Notes under the pieces: model-generated
Database searches by the model: none
What the model saw: only the letters and a program-made list of their open reading frames with translations
Told to the model about the DNA's origin: nothing
Made by a program: the position numbers and the translations under genes
In this document: piece by piece, positions 8,250 to 22,204 of the stretch
How the letters are laid out: each line of letters begins with the position of its first letter
Position numbering within the stretch: the stretch's first letter is position 1
Source of the DNA: a virus
Strand: one strand, 5' to 3'
DNA: 24,447 nt
Virus record (IMG/VR): IMGVR_UViG_3300035158_000251
Location: 1 to 24,447 of that record

Positions 8250-8399
8250 ATGAGGATGCCAGTTTCGAGATGTCCGAATGGCAAATTCAGAATCGGAGAC
8301 GGACCATGCACCTTCTCCACGCGAGCTGCGGCTGAACGAGCTTGGGCGGCATATCGAGCAAAACACGTAGACAAGAAGGAAACGAACAATGAGTCTTAA
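8250..8399 (+). CDS. Small conserved virus protein (49 aa) between the tube genes
   Basis: A 49-residue frame between the two tube paralogues. It starts one base after the previous stop and overlaps the next gene by 11 bases. It contains RCPNGKFRIGDGPCTFSTRA followed by AAERAWAAYRAKH. I recall small phage proteins with the same pattern: a Cys, 'NGKxRIG', a second Cys about 12 residues on, then an Ala-rich helix. They appear near structural genes and have no known role. The two Cys could bind metal or each other. Confidence 0.65.
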   Translation: MRMPVSRCPNGKFRIGDGPCTFSTRAAAERAWAAYRAKHVDKKETNNES

Positions 8400-9054
8400 G
8401 GGTTGGGAAGGAGCCATCAAATACTCCAATCGTATAGTCAATGAGTCAGTGGGTATCGGAGACAACGCTGACACCACATGGGACTTGGACTATCCAGCAG
8501 TCGATGAGCTTGGTGATGTCACAGATGACCCTACAAAAATAGAGGTCTTCCTAGACGGAGTTCAACAGACTCCAACGACTGATTACACATTGGATGGTGA
8601 TGGTGGAGCTGGGTCTGTGGGTGAGATTACATTCGTGGTTGCTCCAGGCAGCTCTGTTGTAATCACAGCGAACTACTATCGCTACCAGGACATTGGTTAT
8701 GTCCAATCCATCAGTCCATCAGTCAGCAACAATCTGGAGAATGTCTATGAGATTGGTTCTCGTGAGCCAGTCGAGATTAAGGAAGGAAACATCGACATCT
8801 CTCTCGACATGACTCGTTGCTTCATTGACTTGTCACTCGTGTCAGTGGTCATTCACAAAGACAGTGATGCAGATGAATGGCTCGCACAGAACGAGTTCGA
8901 TATTGAGGTCTATCCAGCAGGAGACACTGGTGGAAATCCCCTCATGATTATCCGAGGCAAGTTCGGTGACTACTCGCTTGACATGTCTCAGGATGGAATC
9001 CTCATGGACTCCATCACATTCACAGGCAGAACTATCACACTGACCACAGCATAA
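8389..9054 (+). CDS. Tail tube protein, paralogue B with an inserted Ig-like domain
   Basis: A 221-residue relative of the 7808 gene, with about 75 extra residues (roughly 21-97) placed after the shared start MSLKGWEG. The insert runs from VGIGDNADTTWDLDYPA through DVTDDPTKIEVFLDGVQ and YTLDGDGG to PGSSVVITANYYR and looks like an independent beta-sandwich of a type common in phage proteins. A close copy sits in the tail hub gene at 12513. The rest matches the tube core. It could form decorated rings of the tube, or the tube's end. Two tube genes suggest a mixed tube or a specialised terminal ring. Confidence 0.72.
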   Translation: MSLKGWEGAIKYSNRIVNESVGIGDNADTTWDLDYPAVDELGDVTDDPTKIEVFLDGVQQTPTTDYTLDGDGGAGSVGEITFVVAPGSSVVITANYYRYQDIGYVQSISPSVSNNLENVYEIGSREPVEIKEGNIDISLDMTRCFIDLSLVSVVIHKDSDADEWLAQNEFDIEVYPAGDTGGNPLMIIRGKFGDYSLDMSQDGILMDSITFTGRTITLTTA

Positions 9055-9880: not shown

Positions 9881-10253
9881 GAACATGTTCAAGGTCGAGG
9901 CAGTTGGACTCCAATTTCTTGAGCAAGCATTTGACACTCTCTCTGAATCCATGCAGAAGAAGTCAAAACAAGAGATAGGTGATTCAGCAACTGAAGCTGC
10001 TCGCATTGCGAAAATCCTGGTGAGGGTTGATACTGGTTTCCTTCAGTCACAGATTTTTGTCAGAGAGCTTCTAGGATTCAACAAGTTTGAACTGGTCGCC
10101 GCAACTCCATATGCCGAATACGTTGAATATGGCACAAGTCGAATGCCAGCATTCCCATATATTCGACCTGCGATTGAACAAGTTGGAAGGGAACTTCCTC
10201 GCAAGATTCTCAAAGAAGTCATGTCTGATGTCAGGAGAGTTCTACCCAAATGA
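9870..10253 (+). CDS. HK97 gp10-like tail completion protein
   Basis: A 127-residue protein with the hallmark of the HK97 gp10 family: VRVDTGFLQSQI in the first half, then YAEYVEYGTSRMPAFPYIRP and a helical end. The family joins tail and head or acts at the neck of long-tailed phages. Start choice: TTG at 9870 has AGGTGA nine bases before it, and the in-frame ATG at 9885 has no better site, so I keep the TTG. It is joined to the tape measure gene by ATGA. The gene's place after the chaperones rather than before the tube is slightly unusual. Confidence 0.82.
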   Translation: MVAKNMFKVEAVGLQFLEQAFDTLSESMQKKSKQEIGDSATEAARIAKILVRVDTGFLQSQIFVRELLGFNKFELVAATPYAEYVEYGTSRMPAFPYIRPAIEQVGRELPRKILKEVMSDVRRVLPK

Positions 10254-12520
10254 GCGAGAATGCCACAGGAAATGTCAGAGTAGTCCTTCAAGCTGTGGAC
10301 AATGCATCATCCACAATGCAGAAGGTAAAGGTCGGAATGACTCAGCTCTCAGGAGCATTATCTCAACTTGGTGGCGGCTTCGCATCTGTCAACAACATCA
10401 TGCAGGGATTCGCGGCTGGTGGACCGTGGGGAGCTGCCGCAGCTGCTATCGGTGAAATAATCGGGCAGGCTGAGAAGGCAGTCAGAGTTTTCGCTCAGTT
10501 CGAGACCGCAATGGTGGATGTTGCAGCTGCATCAGGAGCATCGGGTGAGGAACTCATCCAGCTCAGGAAAGACCTCCAGGAAGCTGCTATGGCCGCAGGA
10601 GTCGAGTTCGGAGTGGGTGCAACTGAAGCCATGAAAGCAATGGAGTCTCTGGTGAAGGCAGGTCTCGAAGGAGAGGAAGCCATCACAGCACTCAGCGCAG
10701 CTCTCACGATGGCACAGGTAGAGGGAATGGCAACTGCTGAAGCGGCTGACCTCATGGTTGGAATCATGGGAATGTTCCAGATGTCAGCTGAAGAAGCCGC
10801 ACATGCAGTCGATGTGATGGTCAATGCATCAATCGCTGGAATCGCAACATCCAATGAGTTCGCAACTGCCCTGTCATATGTTGGTGGTCGCGCCAACCAG
10901 CTTGGATTCAGTCTGGAAGAGACCACAGCTGCACTTGTCGCCATGAACAACCAAGGTATAGCGGCAACCACAGCAGGTCAGTCATTGAACATGATGATGA
11001 CCCAGATGATTCAGAAGTCTGACACACTTGGGTTCTCACTCTATGATTCACAGGGGAACATGCTGTCCCTCGCAGAGATTTCTGGAAATCTGGTGGACAA
11101 GCTCAACTCATTCTCAACAGAGGCTGAACGAAATGCCTACCTCACTTCAGTATTCGGAGCTCGTGCAGGTCGAGCCGCAGCTGCACTCGCAGGTTTCGGA
11201 GACACAGGAGCAGAAGTGCAAGCCGCATTGGAAGCACTCACTGAGGAGATGGAGGAAGGAGGAACTTCAGCTGACATCCTGGAGCAGAAGCAAGACACAC
11301 TCGCAGCTACAGGAGACCGTCTCGCGGCCATGTTCGAGAATCTCTACATCATGATTGGTGAGATTCTTGCTCCAGTCTTGGAGTGGTTCGCCAACTTCAT
11401 CGAGCAATACATCATTCCGTTCATTGAGGACATCATTCCTCCAATCGCGGCAGTGGTCAATGCCTTCCTGACATTCATCGACACCATCTGGAAGCTTGGA
11501 CAAATCATTGCTCACTACCTCAAGCCAATCATCGATGGAATCATGGCATTCCTCGGACCACTCATCGAAGCCATCAAAGCTGTTGTCGAGGCAGTCATGT
11601 TCCTCTTCGGAATCCTGGTGGAAGCTGTGAACACAGCCTATGATGAGATTACTCAGACCAATGATGCCATTGTCGATGACATGGAAGACACAGCTGACGA
11701 AATCAATGAGATTTCTGAGGAGGAGCAAGCTGAATATGACCGACTCGCGGCAATGTATCAGGAATATGCTGACTCACGCATGGGTGTGAATGACCAGATT
11801 GTCGAAGACACTGAGGAGACCGTGGATGCTGTCACTGATGCATTCAACAACATGGACCAGACAGTCGTTGGTTCCATGGAGCAGATGGCGGCAAATGCCA
11901 CAGCGGCAATCCAGCAGGGTCTCGTTGGAGACGCTCAGGATGCAATCCATGACTTTGTTGAGTGTTCGACCACCAAGCAACAAGAGATGGTGGAGGACAT
12001 CGATGGCTACTTGGAAGACATGCGAGAGCAATATCGTGAGAACATGATTGAGATTCGCAGACTCCAAGATGCAGGAATGCACCGAGAAGCAGAGCTCCTC
12101 ATGAAGCACAACAACGAGCTCACTCGTAAGATGGACCAGCTTCTCATCTGGCGAGACATGATTCTTCAACAGCAATGGGACTCGACAACTGATGCAGTCA
12201 GGCAGGCACTCATGGACCAATATGGTCTCTATGAGCAATACTACTCAGACCTGACTGGATTGGATGAAGAGTTCTTCCCAGACCCTGTTGAGCCTATCAT
12301 CGACCCAATCAGAGAACTTCCATTCGATGAGATTGACCCGATTAGATTCCCACAGCCAGACCCAATCACCATTGCTCCAACAGTCGGGAATGTTCAGCTA
12401 GACTTCCATGAGCCAGTGGACATGATTGATGCTCGAAGGATTGCTGAGGATGTCTATTCGGAGCTTCAGAAGATTCAGGAAGAACAACAGAGACAGAGAG
12501 GTTATCAGAGAAATGTCTAA
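10250..12520 (+). CDS. Tape measure protein (TP901-type)
   Basis: A 756-residue protein. The N-terminal ~330 residues match the TP901/PhageMin_Tail core: AQFETAMVDVAAASGASGEE, an Ala-rich helical stretch, GGRANQLGFSLEETTAAL, AAGQSLN, and an ERNAYLTSVFGARAGRAAAAL end. This is followed by a long hydrophobic region (about 350-470) with several possible membrane helices, then a charged helical tail to residue 690 and a Pro/Asp-rich end. Such proteins set tail length and may help the DNA cross the membrane; the hydrophobic centre fits. The stop overlaps the hub gene by eight bases. Confidence 0.92.
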   Translation: MSENATGNVRVVLQAVDNASSTMQKVKVGMTQLSGALSQLGGGFASVNNIMQGFAAGGPWGAAAAAIGEIIGQAEKAVRVFAQFETAMVDVAAASGASGEELIQLRKDLQEAAMAAGVEFGVGATEAMKAMESLVKAGLEGEEAITALSAALTMAQVEGMATAEAADLMVGIMGMFQMSAEEAAHAVDVMVNASIAGIATSNEFATALSYVGGRANQLGFSLEETTAALVAMNNQGIAATTAGQSLNMMMTQMIQKSDTLGFSLYDSQGNMLSLAEISGNLVDKLNSFSTEAERNAYLTSVFGARAGRAAAALAGFGDTGAEVQAALEALTEEMEEGGTSADILEQKQDTLAATGDRLAAMFENLYIMIGEILAPVLEWFANFIEQYIIPFIEDIIPPIAAVVNAFLTFIDTIWKLGQIIAHYLKPIIDGIMAFLGPLIEAIKAVVEAVMFLFGILVEAVNTAYDEITQTNDAIVDDMEDTADEINEISEEEQAEYDRLAAMYQEYADSRMGVNDQIVEDTEETVDAVTDAFNNMDQTVVGSMEQMAANATAAIQQGLVGDAQDAIHDFVECSTTKQQEMVEDIDGYLEDMREQYRENMIEIRRLQDAGMHREAELLMKHNNELTRKMDQLLIWRDMILQQQWDSTTDAVRQALMDQYGLYEQYYSDLTGLDEEFFPDPVEPIIDPIRELPFDEIDPIRFPQPDPITIAPTVGNVQLDFHEPVDMIDARRIAEDVYSELQKIQEEQQRQRGYQRNV

Positions 12521-14294
12521 GTATCGAGTGACGATTGATGGAGTCGATGTGTCCCAGAAACTGGTGGATGAAGGATTCACTCTCTCTTGGGGGGACATGG
12601 CTTCCAAGCGAGCATCAGTGAAGCTCTATGAACAGCTCTACAATCTGAACGATGAGCTGATTGTCTACTTCGATGACACAGTTATCTTCCAGGGTGACAT
12701 CGACAAGGAGTTCGTGAGACCTGGAGAGTTCATCTGCTATGCATCTGACCAGATGATTACTCTCGCTGATGTGATTGCCAGAAATGTAGACCATCGTGAG
12801 TATTCACTCCGGCGAAACGAGGATGTTGGAACTGGTGACAACATTGATACCACATGGGAACTCGACTATCCAGCTCTTGACAGATCATTGGCAATCACCG
12901 ATGATGAGAACGACATCGAGGTCTTTCTTGATGGAGTATATGTTGACCCTGCCGATTACACCCTCGATGGTGATGGTGGAACTGGTGGAGTCGGACTCAT
13001 CACCTTCGACACAGCTCCTGGAAGCTCAGTCGAAATCACATGCAACTACAACGCGAAGGAACCCGTTCAATATGAGGTCATCTTCAAAGACCTCCTGTCC
13101 TACTACTACCCTGGAGTCTTCGATGTCAGCAATGTGGATGACACGAACAAGACCTGCTTCTATGTTGACCTGACTGACAAGTCCATCTGGGAATGTCTCA
13201 AGGTTCTCTCACAGAGAGCAAACATGGCAATGTGGCTTGAACCTCCAAACAAACTGTATTGGAAGACTCGCGACTCAGTGTCATCAGACTTCTCAGCAAT
13301 CTATGGTCAGAACATCAAAGACCTGTCAATCACTCGTGACAACTTTGTGAAGACCAGAGTAATCGTTCTCATCACGCTTCCAGGAGGAAGGACTGGCGAG
13401 GTGATTGTGGGAACAGGGTCTCGGACTGCCATTGTCAATGATGACACCATCAACAACGAGACCGATGCAACCGCGAGAGGTCAGGCTGTTCTCGATGAGC
13501 TCCAGGACATTCAGATTCGAGGAGAGATTGAACTCACTGAGTCTCGGCATGACCTGATTCCTGGAACTACCTGTGTCTTGAATGCTCCTCAGTTCGGATT
13601 CGAGAACGAGACCCTTAGAATCAAACATGTCAATGTGACTCCGAAGGGAACCAAGCTCTCACTTGGTCTCATGACTGCAATGGTGGAAGACCAGATTGTT
13701 GACTTCGAGGAGAGAATCAGGCGGCTTGAGAATCGAGGCATGACTTGGAGAGTCGCATGTGACACTTCCCAACAGACCATGGCTGGATGTGTTGTGGTCT
13801 GCGAGGCCGAATGTCAGATAGCATGTGAGACCGTTGCAGGATGTGTGACTGCATGTCAAGAGGGTCTCTGTCAGACTGATTGCCAGACCTCTCTTCAAAT
13901 CACCTGTGTCACTGGTGAACAGATTTGTGGAGATGAGGGAACATGTCAGATTGCCTGCCAGACGGGACATCGATGTGAGACCACCTGCCAGAGCCAATGC
14001 CAAACAGAGTGCCAGACCGAGTGCCAATCTGAATGTCAACAGTCATGTCAAGGAGGTTGCGAGACCTCATGTCAAGCAACATGTGAAACTGCCTGTCAGA
14101 CTGGTTGTGAGATAGTGTGCAACACTGGTTGTGAGACCTCATGTCAGACCACTTGTCAACAGAGCTGTCAATCCGTCTGTGAGACTCAGTGTCAGACTGC
14201 ATGTGAAGTGAGCTGTGATGGCTCATGTCAGGTCGCATGTAAGATTGGATGTCAGGAAGAGAGTCTCTGTTGTGGAACTATCGGACCAGACTAA
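12513..14294 (+). CDS. Tail hub/baseplate protein with a long cysteine-repeat C-terminus
   Basis: A 593-residue protein starting at ATG 12513; the longer upstream frame lies inside the tape measure gene, and GAGGT sits about nine bases before 12513. Residues 1-410 look like a tail hub of the gp27/gpD type, starting YRVTIDGVDVSQKLVDEGF, with an inserted Ig-like domain at about 103-183 that matches the insert in tube paralogue B. From about residue 410 it changes to a 184-residue tail with 39 Cys. The last long run has 24 Cys spaced exactly four residues apart, each followed mostly by Gln or Glu (CETSCQTTCQQSC style). No known virus structural domain that I recall has this. The next gene encodes a radical SAM/SPASM enzyme fused to a glycosyltransferase, so the tail is probably a modified substrate. 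A metal- or disulfide-rich fibre is the alternative. Confidence 0.82.
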   Translation: MSKYRVTIDGVDVSQKLVDEGFTLSWGDMASKRASVKLYEQLYNLNDELIVYFDDTVIFQGDIDKEFVRPGEFICYASDQMITLADVIARNVDHREYSLRRNEDVGTGDNIDTTWELDYPALDRSLAITDDENDIEVFLDGVYVDPADYTLDGDGGTGGVGLITFDTAPGSSVEITCNYNAKEPVQYEVIFKDLLSYYYPGVFDVSNVDDTNKTCFYVDLTDKSIWECLKVLSQRANMAMWLEPPNKLYWKTRDSVSSDFSAIYGQNIKDLSITRDNFVKTRVIVLITLPGGRTGEVIVGTGSRTAIVNDDTINNETDATARGQAVLDELQDIQIRGEIELTESRHDLIPGTTCVLNAPQFGFENETLRIKHVNVTPKGTKLSLGLMTAMVEDQIVDFEERIRRLENRGMTWRVACDTSQQTMAGCVVVCEAECQIACETVAGCVTACQEGLCQTDCQTSLQITCVTGEQICGDEGTCQIACQTGHRCETTCQSQCQTECQTECQSECQQSCQGGCETSCQATCETACQTGCEIVCNTGCETSCQTTCQQSCQSVCETQCQTACEVSCDGSCQVACKIGCQEESLCCGTIGPD

Positions 14295-14310: not shown

Positions 14311-16182
14311 ATGGTAATTGCAGAAGAAATTAAGGATGGAGAGTCTCTCTTAGCGAGAGCAGATGTGAAGAAGAAAGAAAAGGAAGAGTGCAGTCCACGG
14401 AAGAAACATCTCGTGGGTCTCTGGCTCACTGATGCCTGCAACCTGAGATGTGACTATTGCTTCCAGGACAAAGACCACATTCCCAAGAACATGAATCAAG
14501 AGACCCTGGATGCGACAATCAAGTTCGTCAATGAGATTGAACCAATGGGCGTTGCATTCTTTGGTGGAGAACCACTCATTGCAAAGAGACAGTTCAAACA
14601 GGCTCTCGCAGAGATGAAGGTTCCCAAGTTCTATCTCACCACGAATGGAACATTGCTCGATGATGACATCCTCGATTGGATGGAGATATTCAAAGTACAT
14701 CTCAATCTGAGCCTGGATGGAATGAAGGACACACAAGACAGATGGCGAGACGGTTCTTACGATGCAATCATAAGGAACCTTCCTCGAATCCTCAGACATA
14801 TGGACATCGTTGGTGGAGAGGTCTTGATGACCATGGTGATGGAGTCTCAGCTCTATCGGAACGTGAAGCATGTGAAGGAGCTTGGCTTCCCCTCAGTCTA
14901 TATCAACCTGCTCGACCCATATGGAACTCAAGTGAGGAACGAGCCTGAGAAGGTTGACATCTTCAAGGAGCAATATCGCAAAGTCATCACAGAGCTTCGA
15001 GAGAAGAAGTTCAGGATTGATGACTATGACCGATGGGTGAAGCTCTTGAAGAACCCAAACTGGAAGGGCGGCGAATGTGGCTTCCACAACAGTGGACTTG
15101 GCATCTCACCAGATGGTCTTCTCTATCCCTGTCATCGTGGACCTGAACTCGGACCTGAGTATTCATTCGGAAGTGTCTTCGAGGGGATTGATGAGAAGAG
15201 GATGCAGGAAGTGAGGTCTCTTGGTTGGCATCCAGACGATTGCAGGTCTTGTGACCTCGCGTTCAATCAGTGTCCCGTTTCATGCTATGGTGAACATGGC
15301 GAGTTTGGAAAAACAGTCCATCCAGTCCACTGTCTCTATGAGAAGGCAAAGGCTGAGGTCGTTGCAGAGGTGGCAGGAATCTCTATCACTCCAGAGGCCA
15401 AGGCTGACTTCAATGTCATGGAGGATACGCGACTGATTGTTGGAACTCTGGTCGCTCCGCACAAATACTACATCCTTCCTCAGTTCCTCAAGAATCTCGA
15501 CAAGATGCAGTTCCCCGAGGTCACTGACTACTACTTCATTCTCGACTATGGAGACAATCGGACTTATCGACTCATCGACCTCTGGCTCAAGAACAAGATT
15601 CCATTCGCGCCATATGAGAGGAAGATTGTCAGGAGATTCAAGACAATCAGAATCCCGACCCAATCTGATGACATCGTGATGGACAGGATAACCAGAGCTC
15701 GGAACCTCCTGCTCAATCAGGCATTGCAGGGAACCTACACTCATCTGATGTGGTTGGACTCAGACATCATTGCTCCTCATGACACTGTGCCAAAGCTCCT
15801 CGCTGTGAATGATGCAATCGCAGGAGCTCTCGTGGAGACCCGTCAAGAGTTCGAGCGAGAGACCTGGTTCAACACCTACATGGATGCAGGCAATGGTTCA
15901 TGGCCTTCCAAGACAGACTTCATCAAGGGTGACATCATCACTGTCGATGCAACTGGCTGTGATGCTGTGATTATCAGAAGAGACGTTCTGGAAGATGTTG
16001 GTGTCTACGATTACAGGAGATATGACCATCCAGATGGACCAGCTGGGGAAGACATGCTGTTCTGTCTGAGAGCAAAGGCACTTGGTCACAAGACTCGCAT
16101 CCACACTGGAGTTCATCCAAGACATCTTGGGATTGCAGATGTGGAGCTCACGAGTTCGGTCATCTATGAACGACTTGCTTAA
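14311..16182 (+). CDS. Radical SAM/SPASM enzyme fused to a GT-A glycosyltransferase
   Basis: A 623-residue two-domain protein. Residues about 32-250 form the radical SAM domain with CX3CX2C (C43, C47, C50 in DACNLRCDYC) and GGEP (85-88). A SPASM region follows (C256, C274, C311, C314, C321, C325, C341), as in peptide-modifying enzymes that use auxiliary iron-sulfur clusters. From about 360 on there is a GT-A-type domain: VGTLVAPHKYYILPQFLKNL, the DxD motif DSD (483-485 in WLDSDI), a TGCDAVIIRRDVLEDVG loop, ED (580-581 in GEDMLFC) and a late HTGVHPRHLG. Start: ATG 14311 with GGAGA before it; the longer frame overlaps the hub gene. It follows the Cys-repeat hub gene by 16 bases, which points to post-translational modification of that tail. 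Confidence 0.87.
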   Translation: MVIAEEIKDGESLLARADVKKKEKEECSPRKKHLVGLWLTDACNLRCDYCFQDKDHIPKNMNQETLDATIKFVNEIEPMGVAFFGGEPLIAKRQFKQALAEMKVPKFYLTTNGTLLDDDILDWMEIFKVHLNLSLDGMKDTQDRWRDGSYDAIIRNLPRILRHMDIVGGEVLMTMVMESQLYRNVKHVKELGFPSVYINLLDPYGTQVRNEPEKVDIFKEQYRKVITELREKKFRIDDYDRWVKLLKNPNWKGGECGFHNSGLGISPDGLLYPCHRGPELGPEYSFGSVFEGIDEKRMQEVRSLGWHPDDCRSCDLAFNQCPVSCYGEHGEFGKTVHPVHCLYEKAKAEVVAEVAGISITPEAKADFNVMEDTRLIVGTLVAPHKYYILPQFLKNLDKMQFPEVTDYYFILDYGDNRTYRLIDLWLKNKIPFAPYERKIVRRFKTIRIPTQSDDIVMDRITRARNLLLNQALQGTYTHLMWLDSDIIAPHDTVPKLLAVNDAIAGALVETRQEFERETWFNTYMDAGNGSWPSKTDFIKGDIITVDATGCDAVIIRRDVLEDVGVYDYRRYDHPDGPAGEDMLFCLRAKALGHKTRIHTGVHPRHLGIADVELTSSVIYERLA

Positions 16183-17844: not shown

Positions 17845-20800
17845 ATGCCAGCACATGAGATAGCGTTCCCTGTGGGATCTTACAATATCTACCCACCTGT
17901 TCCAGTGGTGAATAGGTCAGGCAAAGATGGCAACGTTCCAGTCGCCAGAATATTTGCAGGAGACAACTTTGTCGGTGAGTCGCTCGAGGGACATTGGAAG
18001 AAGGAGTCGGAGAACAATCCTGCCGCATGGTTCACAGCAAAGCTCAATGCTGGTTCTGTTGAACTGAACTCACGCTCATCAGCCGCTGGAACATATCAGT
18101 TTGCATGGTTGAACTCACAGCTGCCATTTCCAATGTTGCAGGACTCCTACATTGACGTTCATCTTGAGGTTCCAGCTGTCACTCCGACCTATGAGATTTT
18201 TAGCTTCTTTGTGATTGCAGCTTCTTCAGGAGAGGCAGACTATCGGAGACAGAGTGACCTCCTAGAAGTCTGGCTCTCTCGGTCTACTGGTGGAGCGAAC
18301 AACATCAGAGTTCGCAAGGAAGTTGGAGGAACATCAACCTTCATCTATGCCCGATCAGAAGTGACCAACAACGAGGGAACCTTCCGAATCAAGTTCAGAC
18401 CCACGGATGCAAAGATAGACGTCTACTTCCATGACGGGTCTGGAGCTGTTGTTGAGGGTTCGGATAAACTCACACTCACTGATGACACATATGACCTCGA
18501 CTTCGACATCGGCTATCCCGCACTTGAGGTAGCAATGGCCGAGACCACTGAGCGAGTGGTCATATCAGACGGAATCACAGTGAACATTCCAGACTCAGGC
18601 TTCTCCTATCGTCAACCTCCTGCTGACAAAGGGAAGGGAGATGCCAAGGTCTATGACCAGATGGGAACTGCAACCGAGTCAGACTGGCATAGGGTCTATT
18701 CCAATGACCATGACTATGCTGGAGACATGGTGATTGAGAACGGTCTCATCAGACTCATCATTGATGAAGCTGCGAACAATGGACTCAAGCTCTATCACTG
18801 GACTGGTTCTGCATATGTGCAATACAACGAGTTCCTCCTATTCAGACTTGATGATGATGCCGTCAACTGTACTGTGCCACATCTTGATGTAGTCCATTCA
18901 GTCACACCCGAGTCCGTATCGGTTCGAGTCAGAATGACCAACACCTCGTCTCCTGATGATTCCAACAACATCCTCGTTGACATCACAATGGAACGAGGAA
19001 GATATCATATCGAGGCCGACATCGAGGAAGCGAATCCCAAGCAAGACATCAGGCTTATGTTCTACGACACCACAAATCGCAGGTTCCAATATCTTGGAGA
19101 CAACTTTGTTGGTGATGCAGACCTGACAATCTCAGGAAGCAACACTGTGATGACTGACAACTTCATGATGGCAGTCGATGATGCCGGACCTGACTTCATT
19201 CCATATGTTGCATCGAATGAGAAACCAACCACCAGCTTCTATTCCTATCAAGGCTCATATCTTGCCTTCCTCAATATTGATGTTCTCGACTTCCCAGACC
19301 TGAAGCTCTACATTGGAGTCATGCCATTCTCGGACATTGATGACCTCGTGCGTGAGTGCGAGATTGATGGATCTGGAGTCACGACCAATGCACCTGACGA
19401 TGTTTCAGATGGCACAGCATCTGGTGGGAACAAACTCCAACTCGATGCTCTGAACGAATACTGGCAATACATCTGGACAACTGACAATCTTCCAGCTGGT
19501 CGATACAGATTCATAATCAGAGCAAAGGACTCCAATCAGGTCGCTGATGACTTTGGAATAAATGCTTACAACCAGACTGATTCTGTCTACATCAGTGAAG
19601 ACCAGGGAATCAAGACATTCACGCTCACTGGTTCTTGGGCATATTACTCTGTCATCTTTGAGATTAATGCTGATGACTCTGGTGACACACTGAGGGTCAA
19701 TGCGAAGAAGATGACAGCTGGAGCAAACACCATTGACATCGACCACATTCTGATTGTTCCTCTTGGCAACGGAGAGTCCTTCCCCCAGGACTTGGCGCAC
19801 AGTGAGATGAGATCGAAGGCAAAGAACTTCAGACTCATGGATGCAACCACCTACCAAGTCTTTGCAGGAGTGGGTCTCGGATATGGAATCCCAGACATTG
19901 CCTACACAGATGCAATGGCAGTCGCAGCTGTCGAATCAGTAGCAACACTCACTGCCACTGGTGCTTGGACAATAGGGTCTCTCACACTCACCACGATTCC
20001 AGCAGGCACAGCTGACTATGACAAGTTCTTGGTCTCTGACAGTGGAGTCATCAAGTATCGAACTGGAGCTGAGGTCTTGTCTGACATTGGAGCAGCTGCA
20101 ACAGGCCATGACTTCGACACTCACTCTGGAAACCTCGACCTCGTTGACATTGGTGACTATGGACAAGGCAAGCTCATCAGAGGTGGAGCATCGGATTGGG
20201 AAGCACTCGCGCTTGGAACTCAGAACTATGTATTGAAAGCTGGAGCATCGAACTTCTCATGGGGACAGGTTGATTTCAGCGAAATCACAGGAACACTCCC
20301 ATCTCACGGAGAGTCAGTCCACACTGGAGACATCCTTCCTGATGCTGACCAGACCACTGCCAACTCAATCACGATTGGAACGAACCTCACAATCTTCAGA
20401 GACCTTCTCGTTTCAAGCACAACTGGAAACCTGGAAGTCGCACCAAACTCTTCCAACCGAACCATGTACGGAGTCGGCTTCCCATCAGGCACTCAGGATG
20501 AGTCTGCTTGGCGTTGTGCCAATGCCAGTGACCAACTCAACTATGGTCTCATTGGACTCAGAGTGAATGGAGCAACTGCATATCTTGAGGTCGGTGAAGT
20601 CGGCACAGGAACAAAGCCAACTCAGACCAATGTGCTCTCACTTGGAGACCCTATCGACATCTGTGGTTCAATCACTGTCGATGCTTCTGGTCATGTCACC
20701 AAGATTGGACAGAGCACTCACACCACTGACTACTTCCTGAAGTGGGACGGAGCCAAAGCAGTCTGGGCATCTGCTCCAGGAACGATTGGTGGTTCAGGCA

Positions 20801-21636
20801 CAGTCAACACACTTGCTCGATTTGTTACAGACACAACGACCATCGGAAACTCAATGGTCTCTCAGAATGCGGCTGGCACTCAGCTCACAGTTGGAACAAT
20901 CGTGTCAGGCACTTGGCAGGGTTCAGCAATCTCGAACACCTACATCTCAGGTCTGAATCAGAACTGCACCACTGGAAGCACTCCGACCTTTGCAGGAGTG
21001 AACATCACTGGTGGACCGTCTCTCAGTGGAACAGGACTTGATATGAACACTCATGCCATCACTGAACTGACCAACATCACCATGACTGGCCATGTCAGAT
21101 TCTCGGGAACGGGTTCAGCTTCTGGAACTGATGGCTACTGCACCATGGGTGAATATGCTGATGGAGTCCAGTTCTTCGAGCCAACAGCTGGAAGTCAAGG
21201 TGGTTCAGCCTTCAGGATATACACACAACTGAGTCCCAACGGTTGGATTATCGACACATCCACTGGAGACAACATCTTCTTCGGAGAGAGCATCTTCCCT
21301 GTCACATCAGCCACTGGTGAAGACATCGGTTCAGCTTCTCACTATTGGGATGATGTCTATGCAGATGCTTACTATTACAAGACTGCTCCAACATCATTCG
21401 ACCATCTGGATGACCTCGCAATCCTAGAGACCATGCACTCCACGAAGGAGGGTCAGCTCAACTTGGAAGAGGTTCCAGAGGAAGTCTACACGAAGGATGA
21501 GTTTGTGAACTATGCCAACATGCAGGGATTCATCATCGGTGCAACTCGCCAGCTATATCTGAGATTCAAGGAGCAGGAGAAACTTGTTGCTTGGCTCATT
21601 GATGAGGTGGAGAGGTTGAAGGAAGATGCTAGCTGA
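17845..21636 (+). CDS. Large tail fibre/receptor-binding protein with self-chaperone-like end
   Basis: A 1263-residue protein, the longest in the window. Around residues 30-240 is a beta-sandwich like LamG/concanavalin lectins (FAGDNFVGESLEGHWKK, GTYQFAWLNSQLPFP). A second jelly-roll with PAGRYRFIIRAKDSN follows near 550, like carbohydrate-binding domains. From about 690 there are fibre-type Gly/Thr/Ser-rich repeats (GTVNTLARFVTDTTTIGNSM, AGTQLTVGTIVSGTWQG). The end has DIGSASHYWDDVYADAYYY and a coiled coil (LYLRFKEQEKLVAWLIDEVE), similar to the endosialidase-type chaperones of phage fibres. It is probably the main receptor binder and recognises host surface sugar. It overlaps the next gene by 11 bases. 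Confidence 0.8.
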   Translation: MPAHEIAFPVGSYNIYPPVPVVNRSGKDGNVPVARIFAGDNFVGESLEGHWKKESENNPAAWFTAKLNAGSVELNSRSSAAGTYQFAWLNSQLPFPMLQDSYIDVHLEVPAVTPTYEIFSFFVIAASSGEADYRRQSDLLEVWLSRSTGGANNIRVRKEVGGTSTFIYARSEVTNNEGTFRIKFRPTDAKIDVYFHDGSGAVVEGSDKLTLTDDTYDLDFDIGYPALEVAMAETTERVVISDGITVNIPDSGFSYRQPPADKGKGDAKVYDQMGTATESDWHRVYSNDHDYAGDMVIENGLIRLIIDEAANNGLKLYHWTGSAYVQYNEFLLFRLDDDAVNCTVPHLDVVHSVTPESVSVRVRMTNTSSPDDSNNILVDITMERGRYHIEADIEEANPKQDIRLMFYDTTNRRFQYLGDNFVGDADLTISGSNTVMTDNFMMAVDDAGPDFIPYVASNEKPTTSFYSYQGSYLAFLNIDVLDFPDLKLYIGVMPFSDIDDLVRECEIDGSGVTTNAPDDVSDGTASGGNKLQLDALNEYWQYIWTTDNLPAGRYRFIIRAKDSNQVADDFGINAYNQTDSVYISEDQGIKTFTLTGSWAYYSVIFEINADDSGDTLRVNAKKMTAGANTIDIDHILIVPLGNGESFPQDLAHSEMRSKAKNFRLMDATTYQVFAGVGLGYGIPDIAYTDAMAVAAVESVATLTATGAWTIGSLTLTTIPAGTADYDKFLVSDSGVIKYRTGAEVLSDIGAAATGHDFDTHSGNLDLVDIGDYGQGKLIRGGASDWEALALGTQNYVLKAGASNFSWGQVDFSEITGTLPSHGESVHTGDILPDADQTTANSITIGTNLTIFRDLLVSSTTGNLEVAPNSSNRTMYGVGFPSGTQDESAWRCANASDQLNYGLIGLRVNGATAYLEVGEVGTGTKPTQTNVLSLGDPIDICGSITVDASGHVTKIGQSTHTTDYFLKWDGAKAVWASAPGTIGGSGTVNTLARFVTDTTTIGNSMVSQNAAGTQLTVGTIVSGTWQGSAISNTYISGLNQNCTTGSTPTFAGVNITGGPSLSGTGLDMNTHAITELTNITMTGHVRFSGTGSASGTDGYCTMGEYADGVQFFEPTAGSQGGSAFRIYTQLSPNGWIIDTSTGDNIFFGESIFPVTSATGEDIGSASHYWDDVYADAYYYKTAPTSFDHLDDLAILETMHSTKEGQLNLEEVPEEVYTKDEFVNYANMQGFIIGATRQLYLRFKEQEKLVAWLIDEVERLKEDAS

Positions 21637-22204
21637 GACTGAAATCCTGGAAGCATATGCCGCTGTCGAGCTGACTCCTTCCCTCGTTGTACTTGGTGGC
21701 TCACGAGCCTTCGGATATGGTCTCGCGAGCTCAGACCATGACTACTTTGGTTATCACTTTGAGACCGAACCAGAGCTCATCGACATTCTAGTGAACAATG
21801 TGAAGATTGAGTCCAAGCCGCATCACTCGGTCATGTCACTTCTCTCAGACCCTCATCCATATCGGGTTGTCTACAATCTCACGAACTGGTTGTGGTGCGA
21901 ACCAATCTATCAGACCACTGAGGCAGAGACCCTTCGCACTGCCATCAGGTCATTCTTCGATGCTGACAGAGACCGATTCATCTCCAGGTTCGAGCAACTG
22001 GTCGATGACCTCAACAACATCTCGGTTGACCATGATGGGAAGTTCGACAAGCGATTCCGTAAGTGGAGAGAGACCGTTCACATCATCTTGGTCGCACACC
22101 ATCTGAAGACCACTGGAGACCTCGAATGCTCTTGGAAGACCCTCAAATCACTGTATTCAGTGGTGTTGAAGGACACTTTTGATAGAAAGTTTATAACTGA
22201 ATAA
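21626..22204 (+). CDS. Nucleotidyltransferase of the Pol-beta-like superfamily
   Basis: A 192-residue protein with GGSRAFGYGLASSDHDYFGY near residues 24-43. This is the GS-R-x-x-G ... D-x-D nucleotidyltransferase motif, with D37 and D39 as the likely metal-binding acids. Length and motif fit COG3541-like predicted nucleotidyltransferases, which occur in phages including T4-type viruses, often with unknown substrates. It starts inside the fibre gene (21626 versus stop 21636), with GAGGTTGA upstream, so it is co-translated with the fibre. It could add nucleotides to RNA or to protein (for example the fibre or a host component). The role is undetermined. Confidence 0.78.
   Translation: MLAETEILEAYAAVELTPSLVVLGGSRAFGYGLASSDHDYFGYHFETEPELIDILVNNVKIESKPHHSVMSLLSDPHPYRVVYNLTNWLWCEPIYQTTEAETLRTAIRSFFDADRDRFISRFEQLVDDLNNISVDHDGKFDKRFRKWRETVHIILVAHHLKTTGDLECSWKTLKSLYSVVLKDTFDRKFITE

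Follow-up and report, generated by a model that had tools for sequence, protein, structure and literature searches.

Tail Genes of the Window

The window, the whole stretch of virus DNA that was analysed, comprises 24,447 nucleotides (positions 1 to 24,447 of IMG/VR record IMGVR_UViG_3300035158_000251). The source record is a 24-kb fragment. All features of the tape-measure, hub and enzyme genes described here are on the plus strand. A tail tape-measure protein is encoded at 10250-12520 (PF10145, 4.2e-36; PHROG 1533, 6e-59), and genes for a capsid protease, the major capsid protein and the tail tube were found upstream of the hub gene. Directly 3' of the tape-measure gene is the gene of a hub-type tail protein, which carries a Cys tract. 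The longest ORF spans 12426-14294. The probable start is the ATG at 12513, in agreement with the starts of homologues, giving a protein of 593 aa (12513-14294).

Two homologues were 54-56% identical to this hub, one on an IMG/VR contig (L002) and one on a contig in a Thorarchaeota bin (L003). PHROG 52 "tail protein" was matched by two of the three hub family members (best 2.1e-4). The hub also aligned with a YQBQ-like tail protein on contig L042, which likewise bears a tract, with an hhalign probability of 97%. Both the position after a tape-measure gene and the tail-protein family matches expected of a tail hub were present. The assignment as a tail-tip (hub-type) protein, made in the original prediction, is supported by these sequence comparisons.

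An insertion of approximately 85 aa in the hub (12804-13061; EDVGTGDNIDTTWELDYPALDR...) was missing from the L002 and L003 hubs in a MAFFT alignment. By eye it resembles part of a second tail-tube-like protein encoded at 8389-9054 (NESVGIGDNADTTWDLDYPAVDE...), and the likeness may reflect a shared or mobile virion domain. A putative tail fibre of 1,263 aa is encoded at 17845-21636 and weakly matched a carbohydrate-binding family (PF02018, 0.0017). Where the tail fibre gene ends, a small protein with a nucleotidyltransferase-like start (GGSRAFGYGLASSDHDYFGYH) and no family match is encoded at 21626-22204.

The Cysteine Tract

Translation of 13740-14291 confirmed 39 Cys in the final 184 hub residues and few in the rest of the protein, with only 5 in the 438 ORF residues before. 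The Cys content of the other virion-type ORFs in the window was 0.59%. The tract runs from C416 to C587 (13758-14273) with the consensus unit C-[Q/E]-[T]-[S/G/A]. A run of 24 consecutive Cys exactly four residues apart had been described and was found at 13974-14252 (P0001 residues 517-609). The longest run of this spacing in 20,000 same-composition shuffles of 184 residues was 6. The spacing before the run is irregular yet conserved (10, 4, 4, 4, 6, 4, 5, 4, 8, 7, 6, 4, 6). Gln or Glu had been said to follow nearly every Cys of this run. Over the whole tract, the residue after Cys was Gln 20 times and Glu 9 times. Thr was the commonest residue two positions after Cys in the window (19/39).

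Tandem Repeats Finder returned just two 12-mers of 2.5 copies each in the tract DNA. The Cys codons were mixed (30 TGT, 9 TGC), as were those for Gln and Thr. With mixed codons and hardly any tandem repeat in the DNA, the repetition is at the protein level and not the result of a recent DNA expansion. The L002 and L003 hubs each have exactly 39 tract Cys with the same irregular initial spacing, and the C-terminal end L-C-C-G-T-I-G-P (14265-14291) is identical in all three hubs. Across the three viruses 38 of 40 aligned Cys columns were invariant. Identity among the residues between the tract Cys was 26%, compared to 40% in the rest of the hub. Selection thus acts on the number and order of the Cys and not on the surrounding sequence.

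The Radical SAM Enzyme

A predicted radical SAM/SPASM enzyme of 623 aa with a C-terminal glycosyltransferase-like domain (14311-16182) is encoded 16 bp past the hub stop (14294). It was matched by PF04055 (7.5e-16) and has both the CxxxCxxC motif and the auxiliary-cluster Cys of radical SAM/SPASM proteins. The CxxxCxxC [4Fe-4S]/SAM motif (C43, C47, C50; 14437-14460) did not vary among 17 enzymes from tract viruses. The SPASM auxiliary-cluster region (C256-G ... C311, C314, C321; 15076-15333) matched PF13186 weakly and its Cys were conserved in the alignment. The fused domain (15424-16179) has LDSD and GED motifs, and its Anp1/GT2-like matches were weak (PF03452 Anp1, 4.8e-6, and PF13641, 0.0065, both below gathering thresholds; PHROG 1574, 2e-9). 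A radical SAM gene was also found immediately downstream of the hub in L002 and L003, where it is interrupted by the contig end.

The best NCBIfam match of the window enzyme was PapB (1.5e-41) followed by CcpM, SCIFF maturase, nif11 maturase and QhpD, all below their equivalog cut-offs. Scores were 142.7 bits against a cut-off of 340 for PapB (NF047865), 96.4 against 425 for the SCIFF maturase (TIGR03974), 90.1 against 453 for the QhpD maturase (TIGR03906) and 66.2 against 350 for the CXXX-repeat maturase (TIGR04115). By sequence the PapB and SCIFF maturase families are its nearest relatives, and it is a member of neither. Nineteen virus enzymes were scanned, including that of the window, and 16 had PapB, SCIFF maturase, QhpD or close nif11/ScfB-like families as their best matches, always below cut-off. 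The enzymes of L128 and L141 scored higher for PapB/SCIFF maturase than the window enzyme. The exceptions were the enzyme of L050, which is a true TIGR04115 member, that of L131, which had no match, and L135:3974-5038, an additional radical SAM gene located next to one that is PapB-like.

A PDB profile search with the enzyme family gave CteB (5wgg) at 6e-91 with the next match at 2e-46, and anaerobic sulfatase maturases were the next matches. AlphaFold modelled the radical SAM core of the window enzyme at a pLDDT of about 90, and CteB (5wgg/5why) was the nearest fold. Only about 42 residues precede the CxxxCxxC motif, compared to about 85 in several of the other virus enzymes. This is too short for a CteB-type N-terminal recognition (RRE) domain, which the window enzyme appears to lack. 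The enzymes of tract viruses did not form one clade in the enzyme tree, in which long branches make the topology unsafe.

Tracts and Radical SAM Genes in Other Viruses

IMG/VR was scanned with C[Q/E]xxC DNA patterns. This first scan was a sample and its counts are among the matches listed. A second, complete scan of IMG/VR with another pattern was used as replication. Real tracts were told from DNA-repeat accidents by reading frame and by the diversity of the intervening residues. Most raw matches of the first scan were frame accidents of DNA repeats. Low-diversity repeat-artefact contigs were reused as controls (22 from the first scan and 4 from the second, 26 in all). Tract matches on L004 (Dactylosporangium) and L005 (a proteobacterium) were rejected as alternate frames of Ser-Ala-Ser-Pro repeats.

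Genuine tracts were found on at least 43 contigs over both scans, mostly in tail or baseplate-type proteins. The tract stood as described and is not confined to one hub, recurring in many unrelated tail proteins. These included P2 gpI-like baseplate proteins adjoining baseplate-J-like genes, YQBQ-like hubs, a relative of the central tail fibre J and several large tail-region proteins with no family match.

In the first scan PF04055 was present on 22 of the 28 real-tract contigs listed compared to 2 of 22 controls. L026 and L081 had adjacent maturase-like enzymes that PF04055 missed (PapB, 3.3e-15, and QhpD, 4.4e-14, respectively). Three contigs among the matches listed ended at the tract gene. 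The sole candidate on L072 was a CxxxCxxC protein that matched no family. In the second scan 15 further real-tract contigs were found, of which 11 had PF04055 and 4 were cut at the tract gene; none of its 4 artefact contigs had PF04055. Pooled over the matches listed, a radical SAM protein lay within 9 kb in 35 of 36 non-truncated tract contigs compared to 2 of 26 controls. Many tract-bearing hubs without an adjacent radical SAM gene had been named beforehand as the outcome that would speak against the original prediction; the comparison was run and gave the opposite result.

The enzyme gene was on the strand of the tract gene in all cases except L184 and was often 27-100 bp downstream. No radical SAM gene was found before the contig end on L103, a 54-kb twin of L083. 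Some contigs were near-duplicates (L063/L178/L187, L060/L183 and L170/L173) and L181 looks like a continuation of L082, so there are fewer independent lineages than contigs.

The largest tract seen was on L132 (4936-8511), in a protein of 1,192 aa with 191 Cys whose gene overlaps in frame with a radical SAM gene. A 172-kb virus contig (L126:5312-15500) encodes three successive tract genes with 102, 75 and 126 Cys followed by a radical SAM gene. Two to three tandem radical SAM genes, one of them PapB-like, lie right behind the tract gene at L135:3974-7245, L136:1135-3286 and L110:7090-9241. A period-8 variant, C-x3-G-E-x2, was found at L131:7671-9947, in which alternate Cys are replaced by Gly and the Glu at i+5 is retained. 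The only candidate near this variant repeat was a CxxxCxxC protein without family matches.

Coupling Between Cys and Gln or Glu

The residues following each Cys were sorted by the distance to the next Cys. An earlier 2x2 test that ignored 5-residue spacings had blurred the signal. In 39 proteins, 157 Cys were followed by six residues free of Cys, and 122 of these 157 had Gln or Glu at i+5. The same isolated Cys had Gln or Glu at 9-12% at i+2, i+3, i+4 and i+6. When the next Cys was at i+5 the Gln or Glu shifted to i+6 (135/145). Gln or Glu came right after 1,277 of 1,437 Cys that had a Cys at -4 and after only 35 of 179 run-starting Cys. As run-initial Cys are seldom followed by Gln or Glu, these residues are not simply part of each C-x3 unit, and the retention of Gln or Glu at i+5 of isolated Cys ties the donor Cys to the residue five positions on.

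Fourteen new proteins were used for replication. Gln or Glu was at i+5 of 22 of 39 isolated Cys and at i+6 of 12, and followed 3 of 41 run-initial Cys. The direction of coupling was the same in all nine testable proteins of this set.

Three Cys of the window family with no Cys at i+4 keep an invariant Gln at i+5 in the alignment. These isolated putative donor and acceptor pairs are C416 and Q421 (13758-13775), C457 and Q462 (13881-13898), and C465 and Q470 (13905-13922). About 30 of the 39 window Cys obey the Cys(i)-Gln/Glu rule and about nine have no Gln or Glu at i+5 or i+6.

Comparison With Known Systems

The SCIFF system (CteA/CteB, thermocellin) is like the window system in several respects. 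The C-[QK]-[TS]-x unit of the SCIFF core (CQTSCQSACKTSC) is shared with the tract, and CteB is the nearest PDB enzyme by sequence and fold. The first two reports of the single SCIFF thioether placed it between Cys32 and Thr37, five residues apart, and a later report between Cys32 and Thr34, the bond found in CteA produced in E. coli (PMC8326336). SCIFF is a peptide of about 45 residues, whereas the tract, with its 39 Cys, makes up the C-terminal third of a virion protein of 593 aa, and the virus acceptors look like Gln or Glu. The window enzyme differs in scoring below the SCIFF maturase cut-off, in having no N-terminal recognition domain and in its glycosyltransferase-like fusion. Similar enzymes on human-gut "phage" scaffolds belonged to SCIFF loci, presumably clostridial host DNA, and were rejected as tract viruses; the peptide was kept for comparison. 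As in ranthipeptides, a Cys-rich core lies beside a maturase gene in the window, L002 and L003. The small leader-bearing precursor peptide of that class is missing, the candidate substrate being the tail protein itself.

PapB, which acts on PapA in freyrasin biosynthesis, ranked first in NCBIfam for the window enzyme and for many others. It joins Cys to Asp or Glu in serial thioethers and tolerates varied spacing (PMC9413430). The natural PapB motif is Cys-X3-Asp (i+4) in a peptide, unlike the tract, and the window enzyme scored 143 bits compared to the 340 required. QhpD/PeaB, of quinohemoprotein amine dehydrogenase, is a radical SAM/SPASM system that makes Cys-to-Asp/Glu links inside a structural protein subunit and not in a bioactive peptide. 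It differs in having few, uneven bonds in a compact enzyme subunit, in lacking a repeat tract and in not being viral. Precedents for acidic acceptors are Cys-X3-Asp/Glu for PapB and Cys-Glu for QhpD (PMC8326336, PMC9413430).

The CXXX-repeat system (TIGR04115) also has C-x3 repeats next to a radical SAM enzyme. L050, recovered in the scan, is a true member (485.6 bits, cut-off 350), but its substrate is a short peptide, not a tail protein, with Gln or Glu after just 41% of Cys. Covalent cross-linking within a virion is known from the HK97 capsid. Those cross-links are isopeptide bonds formed autocatalytically in the head, whereas the bonds proposed here would be made by an enzyme in a tail protein.

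To our knowledge, Gln is not a proven acceptor for enzymes of this kind; we infer that it may serve as one in the tract.

Interpretation of the Tract

Judging from sequence and gene order, the radical SAM/SPASM enzyme next door very probably acts on the tract. Our preferred reading, to which we give a probability of roughly 0.6, is that this enzyme is a virus-encoded ranthipeptide-type enzyme forming Cys(i)-Gln/Glu(i+5) thioethers, and that the product is a stapled tail-tip appendage. After synthesis of the hub, the co-encoded enzyme would walk along the tract in the cytoplasm. The sulphur of Cys(i) would be bonded to a side chain at i+5, that of the Gln or Glu immediately past the next Cys, by precedent at the gamma carbon. 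Overlapping thioether rings would form a ladder along a tail-tip appendage of about 170 residues. The bonds would presumably be made before assembly, which would place a stiffened, protease- and reductant-resistant rod at the tail tip. Its use to the virus might lie in stability, receptor engagement or passage through a membrane or wall; the harsh-condition stability and envelope penetration originally proposed are speculative roles. The remaining nine or so window Cys, among them the final CC, may have free thiols, form disulfides or be joined in some other way. Fused or neighbouring glycosyltransferases may decorate the rod in some viruses.

Since the tract is encoded beside a relative of Cys-stitching enzymes, viruses with a tract probably carry a chemically cross-linked tail tip. 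It is the i+5 coupling that points to sulphur-to-non-alpha-carbon thioether bonds in particular. Several observations count against the thioether reading. The window enzyme scores far below the PapB and SCIFF maturase cut-offs, and many radical SAM/SPASM enzymes have other functions. L072 has just a CxxxCxxC protein that matched no family, L103 shows no radical SAM gene before its contig end, and about nine of the 39 window Cys fall outside the rule. The bond of SCIFF itself is disputed and the window enzyme has no room for a CteB-type recognition domain.

The tract had originally been proposed to be cross-linked, metal-bound or sugar-coated. The coupling and the ancestry of the enzyme favour the cross-link, while sugar seems accessory. 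GT9 genes lay within about 3 kb of the enzyme on 8 of the 28 tract contigs listed, compared to any GT9 on 1 of 22 controls. They were absent from most tract contigs, GT2 was not enriched in tract contigs over controls and the glycosyltransferase-like domain of the window enzyme had weak matches only, which makes sugar decoration plausible but optional. The GT9 counts and the fused domain do lend something to a different chemistry, in which the enzyme would form Cys-Thr/Ser thioethers at i+2, oxidise the Cys Cbeta in the manner of sulfatase maturases, or make C-C bonds or epimerise residues, with a glycosyltransferase adding sugar to Cys or Thr. The frequent Thr two residues after the window Cys, the Cys32-Thr34 bond of CteA from E. 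coli (PMC8326336) and the sulfatase maturases among the PDB matches are in keeping with it. Isolated Cys keep Gln or Glu at i+5 (or i+6) and not at i+2, and we consider such a chemistry unlikely.

The C-x3-C spacing sets Cys along one side of a helix, and Cys-lined helices are known in metal-storage proteins. AlphaFold predicted the tract as two long helices, at a pLDDT of only 51-73 and within a hub model that is unreliable overall (mean pLDDT 39). A metal- or cluster-binding rod with free thiols on one helix face (Zn, Cu or Fe-S) and the radical SAM enzyme as an accessory would have no need for Gln or Glu at i+5, nor for a radical SAM neighbour in nearly all of the contigs listed, and is improbable. 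Ordinary disulfides within or between chains would suit an extracellular virion, as Cys-rich extracellular structures are often so bonded, and the Cys number is exactly conserved. They leave both the enzyme linkage and the Gln/Glu coupling unexplained, evenly spaced neighbouring Cys would pair promiscuously and 39 is an odd number, making this reading very improbable. A neutral or compositional repeat beside an unrelated cargo radical SAM gene might be supposed from how commonly C-x3-C low-complexity repeats arise by frame accident, as in most first-scan matches and in L004 and L005. Virion genes encode the tract in their own reading frame with no underlying DNA repeat, the tract Cys are more conserved than the rest of the hub and the linkage of tract to enzyme far exceeds that of the controls. 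Coincidence is refuted by the linkage counts of both scans and by the Cys conservation, and we give it next to no credence.

Stapling by Cys(i)-Gln/Glu(i+5) thioethers, our preferred reading, may extend beyond this hub. Odds are about even that many tailed viruses of bacteria, and probably of archaea, use radical SAM maturases of their own to staple the polyvalent Cys tracts of tail-tip and baseplate proteins, as a general class with Cys(i)-Gln/Glu(i+5) as an undescribed repeating crosslink. If so, the tail tips of many uncultured viruses would be rods covalently hardened by a virus-supplied enzyme, which would explain the frequent PapB/SCIFF-like radical SAM genes beside tail genes in phages. 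The motif of Cys(i) with Gln or Glu at i+5 is predictive. The tracts would also be a source of new cross-linking enzymes, whose substrates range from tens of Cys to almost two hundred, and would give cryo-EM of phage tails a novel structural element to look for.

Host, Literature and Related Cys-Rich Loci

A search of INPHARED for the tract hub gave no match. Among 227 Asgard genomes the hub was found in one Thorarchaeota bin only, as two contigs. No other real tracts were found in these genomes and a CRISPR spacer search of them gave nothing spacer-like beyond low-complexity matches. Only binning points to an Asgard host, as the hub relative was in one bin and had no spacer support. A full-text literature search, with subscription papers and preprints outside its scope, gave no recognisable report of thioether-modified virion proteins or of radical SAM genes accompanying Cys tracts in tail proteins. 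Thioether formation by radical SAM enzymes has been described for peptides and for one enzyme subunit. The class of chemistry is already known; the location in a virion tail, the scale and the apparent Gln/Glu acceptors at i+5 are not known from earlier work.

Other Cys-rich proteins were observed near radical SAM genes or on a genome with such genes. Contig 3300038428_000729 (L196:2034-2948) encodes a protein of 305 aa that has a twin-arginine-type signal and 60 Cys following the C[Q/E]xxC register. At a distance of 1.6 kb the opposite strand carries a radical SAM gene. The tract system may also occur in exported cellular proteins. Campylobacter phage CP220 encodes a protein with 27 Cys in 123 residues (L142:17848-18216), mostly as C-x2-C (NCINCSNCKNC), and has several radical SAM genes on its genome. 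This is possibly another modified phage protein. On a gut scaffold, a Cys-rich protein of 197 aa (CSGTCKGSCDTGC...) is encoded close to a radical SAM gene (L147:8469-9059 and 9944-11281), and this looks like a long CXXX-type system.
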